Of a DNA stretch of 64,000 nt, positions 1-10,727 are shown piece after piece. The notes under the pieces are model-generated. The model did not search any database, had not been told where the DNA came from, and saw only the letters and a list, made by a program, of their open reading frames with translations. Within the stretch, counting starts at the first letter, position 1. Every line of letters begins with the position of its first letter. This DNA comes from Desulfovibrio ferrophilus. GTDB taxonomy: Bacteria > Desulfobacterota > Desulfovibrionia > Desulfovibrionales > Desulfovibrionaceae. The stretch lies in the NCBI RefSeq assembly GCF_003966735.1, contig NZ_AP017378.1:1-64000 (forward strand), in the 5' to 3' direction. A program made the position numbers and the translations under genes.

Positions 1-161
1 CCATCCTGCTGACGCTGTTGCACCTGGGCATCAAGGGCATCCGTCTCGGACCCTCTCTGCCCGCGTTCATCACTCCTAACATTCTGAACTTCCTGGTGGA
101 GAACTTTGACATCAAGCCCATCTCCACCCCGGATGAAGATCTGAAAGCCATTCTTGGCTAG
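1..161 (+). CDS. hcp: Hybrid cluster protein (hydroxylamine reductase family), C-terminal end only
   Basis: Only the last 52 codons are in the window (frame begins at base 3, stop TAG at 159-161). The visible tail contains [17 protein letters not shown] followed by [13 protein letters not shown], which matches the conserved C-terminus of Hcp proteins. Hcp carries a hybrid Fe-S-O cluster and acts in the cytoplasm in NO/nitrosative stress; hydroxylamine reduction is its older assigned activity. Its position just upstream of HAO-like cytochrome genes and near an HcpR-type operator fits that role. The N-terminal cysteines cannot be seen here, so the subclass is unknown. Confidence 0.88.
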
Positions 162-174
162 CCAAGGAATCAAC

Positions 175-205
175 GGGCCGGAGTATTTGCTCCGGCCCTT
201 TTTTT
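175..205 (+). terminator. Intrinsic terminator after hcp
   Basis: A perfect 9-bp stem GGGCCGGAG/CTCCGGCCC (175-183 with 190-198) with a 6-nt loop is followed by seven T residues (199-205). Confidence 0.93.
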
Positions 206-1245: not shown

Positions 1246-1803
1246 ATGAAATCAGCAAAGCCGATGGTCTGGATTGTTCTGGGAATTATCATCGCATTCC
1301 CGCTGTTCAGCTTGACCTATTACACCATGGTCAGAACCTCCACACCGGGGTTCTGCGCCTCATGCCACGAAATCAAGTTTGCCTACAACACCTGGAAGAC
1401 ATCCAGCCACGTGAATAACGGCCAGGGGGCCGTGGCTGATTGTATGGATTGCCATCTGCCCGCACCGCAGGACACGTGGTCGTTCTTCTATGCCAAGACG
1501 TTTCACGGGGTGAAGGACGTGGTGGCGCATTTCACGGGAGGAGGCGGCGACAATTACGACAACGCCGTGCAGCGCGAAAAGGCCTATGCCTCGTTCAAGA
1601 ACAATCAGTGTCAGAAGTGCCATCGCAATATCCTGCATATTCCCAACAAGCGAGGGGCCATGCTGGCTCACCGAGCGGTTTTGTACCCGCTGCCGGGATA
1701 CGACAAAAAGTGCGTCGACTGTCACCGCGACCTCGTTCACAACGAGCGCGGCTACTACGACTTCAAGCAATACAGGCTGAACCCGTCCCTGGCGGACATT
1801 TAG
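1246..1803 (+). CDS. haoC: NapC/NrfH-type tetraheme cytochrome c, quinol-oxidising partner of the octaheme protein
   Basis: 185 residues. One N-terminal membrane helix (about 8-30) anchors a periplasmic domain with four CxxCH heme sites: CASCH, CMDCH, CQKCH and CVDCH. The family takes electrons from membrane quinol and passes them to a periplasmic multiheme reductase. The next gene, 45 bp downstream on the same strand, encodes an octaheme HAO-like protein, the arrangement called haoCA in epsilon-proteobacteria. ATG at 1246 was preferred to the in-frame upstream TTG because a G-rich Shine-Dalgarno lies at 1236-1240. The electron-donor role is inferred from family and neighbour; the name HaoC rather than NrfH rests on the partner being HAO-like rather than NrfA-like. 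Confidence 0.87.
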   Translation: MKSAKPMVWIVLGIIIAFPLFSLTYYTMVRTSTPGFCASCHEIKFAYNTWKTSSHVNNGQGAVADCMDCHLPAPQDTWSFFYAKTFHGVKDVVAHFTGGGGDNYDNAVQREKAYASFKNNQCQKCHRNILHIPNKRGAMLAHRAVLYPLPGYDKKCVDCHRDLVHNERGYYDFKQYRLNPSLADI

Positions 1804-1848
1804 GTTCAGGGGGCATCGTCAACCTTTGATTAGTGAGGAGAGGGCATC

Positions 1849-3231
1849 ATGAAACGCAAATTCTGGATTGTCGGCCTTGCCGTGATGCTGATGGCCGCTT
1901 GGTCGGCCACTGCCATGGCCGCCAATTATCCCAAACTCAGGGAGTTCCGCCTGGAGCGGAGCATGCCTCAGGAAGCCGTGGCCTGCATCGAGTGCCACAA
2001 GACCGAGCATCCAGGCATGTTCAGTGATTGGGCTCAGTCCCGTCATGCCTCGGCCGGAATCAGCTGTCTGGACTGCCATCAGGCCGATCCCAATGATCAG
2101 GACGTCAGTCTGGACCACTACAAACAGTATGAGCGCGGCGATAATCCCTATGGCAAATCCGAATACAAGGTGCCCGTCACCGCAGTGGTTACGCCCAAGG
2201 ACTGCTCACGCTGCCATCCCGACGAGGTCAAGCAGTACAGCCGTTCCAAGCATGCCAATACCGTCGAGATCATGTGGAAGATCGACCCCTGGCTGAACAA
2301 GGGGATGAACTCCGACAACGAGCGCAAGACCGGCTGTTACTACTGTCACGGCACTGTGATCGAGATGAAGGATGGGAAGATCGATCCCGCCACCTGGCCC
2401 AATACCGGTGTCGGCCGCGTGAATATGGACGGTAGCCTGGGCAGTTGCACCAGCTGTCACACCCGTCATCGCTTCTCGGTGGAGGAAGCCCGCAAGCCCG
2501 AGGCCTGTGGCCAGTGTCACCTTGGGCCGGACCATCCGCAGATCGAGATCTATACCGAGTCCAAGCACGGCGCCATTTACAATGCCAGTGGCTACGAATT
2601 CAACTGGAAGGCAGCTCCCGGCACCTGGACCCCAGGTGTTGATTTCCGCGCGCCAACCTGTGCCTCCTGTCACATGTCCGGCGCGGGCACGGTCAAGACC
2701 AGCCACGACGTGACCGAGCGCCTGTCCTGGGAGACCCAGGCTCCGCTTACTGTGCGGCCAGTTGATTTCAAACCTTTCCCGGCTCAGAATGATTGGAAGA
2801 TCGAACGGGCCAAGATGAGCGAGGTCTGTCAGCAATGCCATGGCAAGAACTGGGTGGATGCCTTCTACGTGGACTTCGACAAAGCCGTCGAAGAGTACAA
2901 CGAGGTCTACTTCAAGCCTGCCAAGGCCAAGTTGGATGAGATGTATGAAAAGGGTGCTCTGGACAAGACCAAGTTCTTCGACGAAGGGCTTGAGGTCGAG
3001 TTCTACGAACTGTGGCACCACGAAGGCCGTCGCGCACGTATGGGAACCATGATGATGGCCCCGGACTACGCCTGGTGGCACGGCTTCTACGAGTGCAAGA
3101 ACCGCTTCAACCGCTATATGGAAGAAGCCAACCATCTGTTGGAGAGCGGCGGCAAGGCATTCATGTATCCGACCTTCCCCAATGCCACGGGTGATACCAC
3201 CAAGCCTCCCAAGATCTTCGGCAAGAAGTAG
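1849..3231 (+). CDS. haoA: Octaheme c-type cytochrome, hydroxylamine oxidoreductase-like (HAO/IhOCC family)
   Basis: 460 residues with a cleavable signal peptide (cleavage after AMA, about residue 24). Eight CxxCH sites are visible at residues 46-50, 73-77, 119-123, 163-167, 200-204, 220-224, 271-275 and 327-331, followed by the helical C-terminal domain typical of HAO. A strong Shine-Dalgarno (GAGGAGAGG, 1835-1843) fixes the start. In ammonia oxidisers HAO oxidises hydroxylamine; relatives paired with a NapC-type donor are thought to work reductively on nitrite, NO or hydroxylamine. An aromatic run PDYAWWH (405-411) lies in the region where the heme-crosslinking Tyr of oxidative HAO would be expected; whether Tyr407 is that residue needs alignment. 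Context with hcp supports periplasmic N-oxide reduction or detoxification. Confidence 0.87.
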   Translation: MKRKFWIVGLAVMLMAAWSATAMAANYPKLREFRLERSMPQEAVACIECHKTEHPGMFSDWAQSRHASAGISCLDCHQADPNDQDVSLDHYKQYERGDNPYGKSEYKVPVTAVVTPKDCSRCHPDEVKQYSRSKHANTVEIMWKIDPWLNKGMNSDNERKTGCYYCHGTVIEMKDGKIDPATWPNTGVGRVNMDGSLGSCTSCHTRHRFSVEEARKPEACGQCHLGPDHPQIEIYTESKHGAIYNASGYEFNWKAAPGTWTPGVDFRAPTCASCHMSGAGTVKTSHDVTERLSWETQAPLTVRPVDFKPFPAQNDWKIERAKMSEVCQQCHGKNWVDAFYVDFDKAVEEYNEVYFKPAKAKLDEMYEKGALDKTKFFDEGLEVEFYELWHHEGRRARMGTMMMAPDYAWWHGFYECKNRFNRYMEEANHLLESGGKAFMYPTFPNATGDTTKPPKIFGKK

Positions 3232-3309: not shown

Positions 3310-4221
3310 TTAAGCGTCGACGGCAAAGGTCCAGTTGTTTTTGCCCGTGTCCTTGACGGAGTACATGGCCTTGTCAGCTTTCTCCAGCAAGGCTTCGGGA
3401 GTTGTGCCGTGTTCCGGGAACATGCTCACACCCACGCTGGCGCCGATGGTGACATCGATTCCGCCAAGCATGAAGGGAGCGCTCAATTCCCGGACGATTT
3501 CCTTTGCGCCCATTGCCGCTTCGTCGCGGGTGTGTGTGCCGATGGCAACGAACTCGTCACCCCCAAGGCGGACGACGCTGCAGTCGGAACAATCTACGGC
3601 CCGCTTGATGCGCTTGGCCACCTTTTGCAGCAACAGGTCACCGGCCTTGTGCCCCAAGGTGTCGTTGACTTCCTTGAATCCATCCAGATCCAGGAAGAGC
3701 ACGGCGACTTCCTTGCCTTCCTCTGTGGCACGTTCCAGAATTGTTGGGAAGTTGTCCTGCAGGAAGAGGCGATTGTGCAATCCTGTGAGGGCGTCGCGGT
3801 AGGCAATGGCCATGGCATCGCCAGCGCTACGCTCGGTGACGTCTTTGACCACGCAGAAATAGCGATTGTGTTCGGGAGAATAGATGATGGTCCAGTTCAG
3901 GTCTTTCAACAGCCCGCCCTTGCAGCGGAAGCGGAAGTTGAACTGCATGGAGCCTATGTCTGATGTAACCAGGGATTGCAGCCCGGCCAAGGTGATTTCC
4001 CGATCGGCAAAATGGATGTATTCCATCAGGTAGTTGCCCATCAATTCGTCCATGGCGTAGCCTGTGGTCTCGGTCCAGGGGGTGTTGACCTCCTCGATGA
4101 GTCCTTCAAGGTCAATGACGGCCGCCATATCATAGGACAGGGAGAGCCAGATGTAGCGCTCCGTCTTGAAAAGATGTTCAAGATAGGCCGGGTCGGCCTC
4201 ATACAATAAGGATTCATCCAT
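3310..4221 (-). CDS. PAS-GGDEF diguanylate cyclase
   Basis: 303 residues, soluble. A PAS domain (about 25-130, ending KDVTERS) senses a signal or binds a cofactor, and a GGDEF domain (about 135-300) should make c-di-GMP from two GTP. The active-site motif is intact (GGDEF, residues 220-224). The product-inhibition I-site is not in its usual place: an RxxD (207-210) lies four residues further upstream than in PleD-type enzymes, so feedback inhibition is doubtful. It is convergent with the haoCA genes and shares their terminator. The sensed signal is unknown. Confidence 0.9.
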   Translation of the reverse strand: MDESLLYEADPAYLEHLFKTERYIWLSLSYDMAAVIDLEGLIEEVNTPWTETTGYAMDELMGNYLMEYIHFADREITLAGLQSLVTSDIGSMQFNFRFRCKGGLLKDLNWTIIYSPEHNRYFCVVKDVTERSAGDAMAIAYRDALTGLHNRLFLQDNFPTILERATEEGKEVAVLFLDLDGFKEVNDTLGHKAGDLLLQKVAKRIKRAVDCSDCSVVRLGGDEFVAIGTHTRDEAAMGAKEIVRELSAPFMLGGIDVTIGASVGVSMFPEHGTTPEALLEKADKAMYSVKDTGKNNWTFAVDA

Positions 4222-4386
4222 GATACGGACTCATATACAGAAAAGGTCCATTGCGTAAAGGAGGGTGATGCTATTGCGCAACACCTTGCAAAAAGGGACT
4301 TTTATTAATTAATGATGGAATGCTCTATATGATGACGGTGTGTTTTGTTGTCCTTATGTTGAAATGTGTTGATTTTTTTAGGGCAT

Positions 4387-4435
4387 TTGACGTGCGTCAA
4401 AGCCCTTTGTGGGGGGTGGGGTATTCTCCAAATCA
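4387..4435 (+). promoter_or_regulatory. HcpR-type (CRP/FNR family) operator with class II promoter
   Basis: TTGACGTGCGTCAA (4387-4400) is a dyad of TTGACG and CGTCAA with a 2-bp spacer; with the flanks GGGC and GCCC it extends to about 11 bp per arm with one bulged base. It fits the TTGAC-N4-GTCAA type of site described for HcpR in Desulfovibrio (recalled, not searched). A -10-like TATTCT lies at 4422-4427, predicting a start near 4434, so the operator centre falls at about -41, the classic class II activation position. The regulated gene starts at 4478. Confidence 0.8.
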
Positions 4436-4477
4436 TGGAAACAGGGCAACACCCGTTTAGAATCAAGGAGACCGACA

Positions 4478-5245
4478 ATGAAAATCGTTCGAAAGATTAT
4501 CGAGATAGATGAGGAATTGTGTAATGGCTGCGGCGAGTGCGTGCCGTCCTGCGCCGAAGGCGCGTTGGAAATAATCGAAGGCAAGGCCAAGGTGGTCAAG
4601 GATCGCTATTGTGACGGCCTGGGTGCCTGTCTTGGCGAGTGCCCCACTGGAGCACTCCAGATCATTGAGCGCGAGGCCGATGAATTCGACGAGGAAGCTG
4701 CCATGGCCTATGTGGCCAGTAAGCAGTCCGTAGCCAAGCCAGCGGGCGGTTGCCCCGGCGCTGCCATGGCCGCATTCAATCCTCAGGCCGGTGGTTGTCC
4801 TGGATCGGGCATGGCCTCTTTTGATAAAACCTCAGCGGCGGCCGACACCGGTGGGCCTTCTCCGAGCCAGCTCGGGCATTGGCCTGTACAGATTAAGTTG
4901 ATTCCGCCTGATGCCCCCTTTTTGCGTGGCGCCGACTTGGTGATTGCTGCTGACTGTACCGCAGTGGCTTACCCCGATTTTCATCGTGAATTTGTTGGTG
5001 GCAAGACCGTGATGATGGGTTGCCCCAAGTTTGACGGTGATTACGCGGCTCGGCTGGCGGATGTGTTCCGTCACTCCGGTGTGCGCAGTGTGACTGTCGT
5101 GCGCATGGAAGTCCCTTGTTGTCTGGGTATTGCCGAAGCCGCGCGCCGTGGTCTTGCTGCTTCTGGACGCGACGACCTGGAGATCAGGGAAGTCATCATT
5201 GGTCGGCAGGGTTCCAAGATGGCTGGCGGTCTGCCCGGATTCTAG
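4478..5245 (+). CDS. Iron-sulfur protein with two [4Fe-4S] motifs, HcpR-regulon type
   Basis: 255 residues; start set by AAGGAG at 4465-4470. The N-terminus has a classic CNGCGECVPSC motif and a second CDGLGACLGECP motif. Two Gly-rich GGCPGxxM segments follow, then a C-terminal domain with further cysteines (DCTAVAYPDF, GCPKFDGDY and VPCCLGIAEAA). Proteins of this build are encoded beside hcp in Desulfovibrio and are presumed to supply electrons to or work with Hcp. The HcpR-type operator upstream supports induction by NO or nitrite. The exact reaction is unknown; the C-terminal cysteines suggest an additional metal site. Confidence 0.82.
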   Translation: MKIVRKIIEIDEELCNGCGECVPSCAEGALEIIEGKAKVVKDRYCDGLGACLGECPTGALQIIEREADEFDEEAAMAYVASKQSVAKPAGGCPGAAMAAFNPQAGGCPGSGMASFDKTSAAADTGGPSPSQLGHWPVQIKLIPPDAPFLRGADLVIAADCTAVAYPDFHREFVGGKTVMMGCPKFDGDYAARLADVFRHSGVRSVTVVRMEVPCCLGIAEAARRGLAASGRDDLEIREVIIGRQGSKMAGGLPGF

Positions 5246-5276: not shown

Positions 5277-5308
5277 CGAAAAACCCCGCCCTTCAGCGGG
5301 GTTTTTCC
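5277..5308. terminator. Intrinsic terminator
   Basis: A-rich flank, stem AAACCCCGC/GCGGGGTTT with a short loop centred near 5293, followed by TTTTT. It ends the iron-sulfur gene. Confidence 0.9.
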
Positions 5309-10307: not shown

Positions 10308-10727
10308 CTAGTCGATCAGTCCTTCGGGGTTGTGCATGAGTTCCTCCAAGGTGATGGCGTCCATTTCTTTCTCCAGGGCATCGGAGATGCGGGCCCATGC
10401 CGAGCGGGTGGGGCAGTCGGTGGCACGTTCGCAGGATTTTGGGTCATCGCAGCAGTCCGCCAGGGTGAAGGAACCTTCCATGGCGCGATAAATTCCACCC
10501 AAGGTGATGGTTTCGGGGGCAGCGTTCAGAAGATGCCCGCCGTTGGCTCCGCGTACGCTACGGATGAAGCCGGCCTGTTTCAGAGGCTTGAAGATCTGCT
10601 CAATGAATTGCACGGAGACATCGGTGCTCTCCGAGAGTTGAGATGCTTTTCGCGGCTTGTTCTCTTCGTGCAGAGCCAGGTCCAGAAGCAACCTGGCAGC
10701 GTAGCGAGTTCGAGCGGAAAGTTTCAT
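10308..10727 (-). CDS. Rrf2-family regulator with IscR-like cysteine ligands
   Basis: 139 residues. N-terminal winged helix (MKLSARTRYAARLLLDLAL, recognition helix near 35-60). Cysteines C93, C99 and C105 follow the C-x5-C-x5-C spacing of IscR-type Fe-S ligands, with an extra C92. It probably binds an Fe-S cluster and responds to iron-sulfur status, NO or redox. A 29-bp perfect inverted repeat 37 bp upstream of the start (10765-10793) is the likely operator, suggesting autoregulation. It is downstream of cbiC on the same strand. Which genes beyond itself it controls cannot be read here. Confidence 0.9.
   Translation of the reverse strand: MKLSARTRYAARLLLDLALHEENKPRKASQLSESTDVSVQFIEQIFKPLKQAGFIRSVRGANGGHLLNAAPETITLGGIYRAMEGSFTLADCCDDPKSCERATDCPTRSAWARISDALEKEMDAITLEELMHNPEGLID

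Follow-up and report, generated by a model that had tools for sequence, protein, structure and literature searches.

In Desulfovibrio ferrophilus, the frdX gene (plus strand, 4478..5245, with a Shine-Dalgarno sequence, AAGGAG, at 4465-4470) encodes a 2[4Fe-4S] ferredoxin-like protein of 255 residues. The question raised by this locus is which regulator controls frdX, and whether this gene is expressed together with hcp. The initial annotation of the window (the 64,000 nucleotides analyzed here, which begin at base 1 of C1, a contig of 3,677,055 bases) had assigned to frdX an HcpR operator in a class II activation layout. The comparisons reported below make it very probable that frdX is subject to HcpR-dependent class II activation and is co-regulated with hcp, the operator being located at 4387-4400.

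The predicted operator, TTGACGTGCGTCAA, lies on the plus strand at 4387..4400 and its centre is at 4393.5 in window coordinates. It fits the pattern wyTTGACnnnnGTCAArw (AT-TTGAC-GTGC-GTCAA-AG), with 10/10 core bases identical and one flanking base off. On the same strand, the -10 element TATTCT was found at 4422..4427, 21 bp from the operator end. When the frdX transcription start is placed 6-7 nt past this element, that is at about 4434-4435 on the plus strand, the operator centre falls at -40.5 to -41.5, in agreement with the value of about -41 given by the initial annotation, which had also pointed to the TATTCT box. The -35 position (4399-4404), 17 bp upstream of the -10 element, reads AAAGCC and is a poor box, so that transcription is expected to depend on an activator.

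Over the 3,720,107 bases of the genome, just two exact copies of the 14-mer are present, one at frdX and the other at C1:3675477-3675490, between the divergent hcpR and hcp genes. On the hcp side of the second copy, a -10-like sequence, TAGTAA, is present 22 bp downstream, so that the hcp and frdX promoters share the same architecture. Because these identical 14 bases precede hcp beside the regulator's own gene, the 14-mer at frdX is almost certainly an HcpR site. The hcpR gene itself, which encodes a CRP/FNR-family protein of 229 residues, is carried by the minus strand at C1:3674722-3675408, about 6 kb from the frdX operator over the linearisation point of the contig. The genome therefore contains both the regulator, linked to hcp, and the second operator that the initial annotation had led us to expect.

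The linearisation point also accounts for what had been described as an hcp remnant next to the operator. In a profile search, prismane matches were obtained with the last bases of the contig (model positions 1-463) and with bases 3-146 (model positions 465-513). Once joined, the two parts form one open frame encoding a 540-residue Hcp, whose score against TIGR01703 is 758 bits, for a cut-off of 361. The gene is thus intact: it starts near C1:3675594, runs over the linearisation point and ends on the plus strand of the window (1..161), 4.2 kb away from the operator. We infer that the contig is a circular chromosome cut within hcp, and for annotation purposes the apparent fragment is an artefact of where this chromosome was cut. 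A candidate second hcp at C1:2901325 was rejected, as it encodes a CO dehydrogenase catalytic subunit (TIGR01702), with a probable CooA adjoining.

An intrinsic terminator follows hcp (175..198, plus strand); in the sister species, this gene is likewise followed by a similar hairpin and T run. A second terminator was detected by the terminator scan after frdX (5278..5307, plus strand). As each gene ends in its own terminator, co-regulation would be achieved via two separate promoters, which is what had been proposed. Between the two genes, the region 1246-3231 encodes an NrfH-like cytochrome and, downstream of it, a multihaem cytochrome that contains a hydroxylamine-oxidoreductase/hydrazine-dehydrogenase-like region (Multi-haem_cyto). 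Both are also present in the sister species; no site with at least 9 matches was found upstream of these two genes. They are followed by a PAS-GGDEF gene (3310-4221, minus strand), divergent from frdX.

The conservation of these elements was then followed in relatives. In the sister species (G001), whose FrdX and HcpR are 82% and 88% identical to those of D. ferrophilus, the gene order hcpR-hcp-nrfH-multihaem cytochrome-GGDEF-frdX is maintained, and both 14-mers are letter-identical while the sequence around them has diverged. At frdX, the operator lies inside a 19-bp block, CATTTGACGTGCGTCAAAG, which is retained together with the -10 block GGGTATTCTC; the changes are found between and around the two blocks, and TATTCT is unchanged though much of the spacer is altered. 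Over the 29 readable frdX upstream regions (the D. ferrophilus genome and its relatives), 17 contain a match of at least 9/10 to TTGACNNNNGTCAA, versus 0 for the reversed control. When 27 operator-containing regions were aligned on the site (mostly frdX, two hcp and one polyferredoxin, several of them from close relatives and thus not all independent), the -10-like score peaked at offset 22 past the operator, where 13 of the 27 show a TA start. The score observed for offsets 20-23 was reached by none of 5000 shuffles. The spacer of 21 bp at frdX is one base under the modal 22 bp, which is a point against class II activation of this gene. Together with the sister-species conservation, this accumulation of -10-like boxes supports the class II layout.

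A gene of the frdX type was found in 48 of the 59 genomes searched and adjoins hcp or hcpR in several of them, consistent with the earlier description of frdX as a gene of a type found with hcp. In distant Desulfobacterota, most frdX upstream regions are devoid of the site (6 of 79 reach 9/10, versus 0 for the control), probably because frdX is located inside an operon there.

The following mechanism can be proposed. An active HcpR dimer would bind 4387-4400, a site whose centre precedes the predicted frdX start by about 41 bp, and would there substitute for the missing -35 box and recruit RNA polymerase to the TATTCT element. As the identical operator would drive hcp, Hcp and FrdX, its presumed iron-sulfur partner, would be induced together from two promoters, under nitrosative stress, the signal presumably being NO or nitrite. 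An opposite reading, in which HcpR binds the same site and represses frdX (and hcp) until it is disabled by NO, is unlikely. For the HcpR2 protein of D. desulfuricans, a repressor model of this kind has been put forward (PMC5701242), and the footprint of the polymerase extends over an operator at -41. However, no usable -35 box exists without an activator, and the 22-bp spacing between operator and -10 element recurs over frdX promoters, as class II activation needs. Furthermore, positive regulation of hcp-frdX was predicted from the site position by Rodionov (PMC545781), and PMC1274295 cites a 255-fold induction of hcp by nitrite in D. vulgaris. Activation by HcpR is thus the reading retained here.

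According to the profile search, a cNMP-binding domain and an HTH of the Crp type are present in HcpR. No cysteine is present among its 229 residues, and the FNR cysteine motif is therefore absent. Its recognition helix, LGTAQETLSR, places Gln, Glu and Arg at CRP positions 180, 181 and 185, respectively, as assigned by eye. The loss of Arg180 has been tied to T in place of G in the half-site (Rodionov et al., PMC1274295). The Gln of HcpR is in keeping with this, since its site has T and not G.

These features bear on the possibility that the site belongs to another CRP/FNR regulator, of the FNR or DNR type, or to CooA. FNR and DNR sites (TTGATNNNNATCAA) are similar to the frdX operator and 16 cNMP-domain matches were obtained in the genome. 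However, the other short CRP-type proteins read here have the helices GTSRETAAR (Arg180), GATRQTVST or NTNKETIDK, or no visible HTH; the protein with GATRQTVST is CooA-like, since it adjoins the CO dehydrogenase gene. Among these proteins, only HcpR has a helix suited to TTGAC, and the hcpR gene itself carries the identical 14-mer, which makes ownership by another regulator very improbable.

The relationship between residue 180 and the outer base of the operator was also observed in relatives. Among those read, Arg180 was found just in G009 (LGATREALSR), G016 (LGATRETLSR) and G021 (LGTARETLSR). The sites of the first two, GTGACGTGCGTCAC and GTGACCCGCGTCAC respectively, are both of the GTGA type, and that of G021, GTGACACGCATCAA, has GTGA in one half alone. 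Where position 180 is Gln or Pro, the sites are of the TTGAC or TTGAT type, and in some of them the first base is A or C. These cases add to those in which residue 180 has been linked in the literature to the outer base of the operator. In both members of the genus, the 12-mer TGACGTGCGTCA, which includes the centre of the operator, is found at frdX as well as at hcp; it is also found at frdX in two other genera, represented by G015 (Pro180) and G009 (Arg180). The hcp site published for D. vulgaris contains the reverse complement of this 12-mer, the outer base T/G switching with residue 180. It is conceivable, though rather doubtful, that HcpR also reads the operator centre and that the outer base may switch while the rest of the site is kept.

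An A/T tract, GATTTTTTTA, is located upstream of the operator (4371..4380, plus strand) and is also found in the sister species; it may provide an alpha-CTD/UP contact or be a piece of a minus-strand promoter. Within 4200-4400, the promoter scan gave a possible minus-strand promoter, TTGACG-17-AAAAAT, overlapping the operator, and an effect of HcpR on the divergent PAS-GGDEF gene is conceivable as well. The conservation of the A/T tract would also suit a palindrome that serves the GGDEF gene, its TTGACG forming, for example, the -35 box of this promoter. However, such a role explains neither the perfect half-site palindrome nor the identical copy at hcp, and the predicted start would be more than 140 bp from the GGDEF start codon; this explanation is very improbable.

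Genome-wide, TTGACNNNNGTCAA occurs 5 times, versus 1 for the reversed control pattern. Four of these five exact sites are intergenic and precede hcp, frdX, a NapH/YccM-like polyferredoxin gene and a sulfite/nitrite-reductase-like operon; all four gene kinds appear among the HcpR targets in PMC545781. The polyferredoxin site is 92 bp before the presumed start codon, with another gene divergent from it. At the reductase operon (C1:2053697), in which a gene with a sulfite/nitrite-reductase domain is followed by a polyferredoxin-like gene, just 48 bp separate the site from the presumed start downstream of it, a distance too short for class II activation. This position resembles the -52 given for D. 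vulgaris, and suggests either repression or a misplaced start codon. The fifth copy, inside a glutamyl-tRNA-synthetase-like gene, is probably due to chance. With one mismatch allowed, 135 sites were found versus 64 for the control, which is too noisy to define a large regulon. That the frdX palindrome itself arose by chance and is devoid of function is extremely improbable: by our estimate from the base composition, about 2 to 3 occurrences of TTGACNNNNGTCAA are expected in such a genome, and of the five exact copies one falls within a coding sequence, but the identical 14-mer at hcp, the sister-species conservation and the spacing statistics all argue against it.

The type of control proposed for frdX is a known one, described in 2004-2005, and the frdX site is most likely a new, well-supported member of the HcpR regulon, which matches the Rodionov prediction. 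The motif wyTTGACnnnnGTCAArw was defined for the HcpR (HcpR1 branch) regulon of delta-proteobacteria (Rodionov 2004, PMC545781; 2005, PMC1274295). D. ferrophilus shares with this regulon the motif, the core targets hcp and frdX, the location of hcpR beside hcp, and further targets, namely the polyferredoxin and the sulfite/nitrite-reductase-like operon. It differs in that frdX is transcribed from a promoter of its own, at a distance from hcp, and in that the genome has a Desulfovibrio-like gene content whereas the motif published for Desulfovibrio was CRP-like. The frdX site belongs to the FNR-like HcpR motif, and not to the CRP-like TGTGA motif that was the first to be described in Desulfovibrio (PMC545781, PMC1274295): both half-sites have T at the third position and the regulator has Gln180, where the CRP-like motif (TGTGAnnnnnnTCACA) has G and is read with Arg180. 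The FNR-like motif is used by many members of the order.

In D. vulgaris and D. alaskensis G20, the HcpR motif is TTGTGAnnnnnnTCACAA, the published helix has Arg180 and the half-site is TGTGA, whereas D. ferrophilus combines Gln180 with TTGAC; the D. vulgaris hcp site, aTtTGAcgcAcgTCACAA, nevertheless shares its centre with the frdX operator. In addition, hcp-frdX is a single operon in these two strains and two units in D. ferrophilus. Thus, as far as can be judged from sequence, frdX stays under HcpR control even outside the hcp operon, which argues that FrdX works with Hcp. In D. gigas, hcp is likewise monocistronic with a divergent hcpR, and a frdX operator is not described in the portion of that report available to us (PMC4287179). 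Pseudomonas DNR, an NO-sensing CRP/FNR protein (PDB 3dkw), is one of the closest matches to this HcpR among solved structures and has an FNR-like half-site, but its targets are denitrification genes. With regard to heme binding, Met68 matters in the HcpR of P. gingivalis, which is a different HcpR from that of D. ferrophilus (PMC12750200).

Two other features of the window were noted. A frameshift-broken IS1595-type transposase gene occupies 307-1157, and a longer second copy (46% identical) is found at C1:692226. A direct repeat, AACCTTCGA(G/C)TCT, flanks this dead gene at 288-300 and 1212-1224, its downstream copy also being found before nrfH in the sister species. A recent insertion between hcp and nrfH was rejected: all that the sister species retains of this transposase gene at this place is a 3' remnant, which points to an old, decaying insertion. 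Finally, a gene for a regulator of the Rrf2 family, which includes the NO sensor NsrR, is located on the minus strand at 10308-10727.
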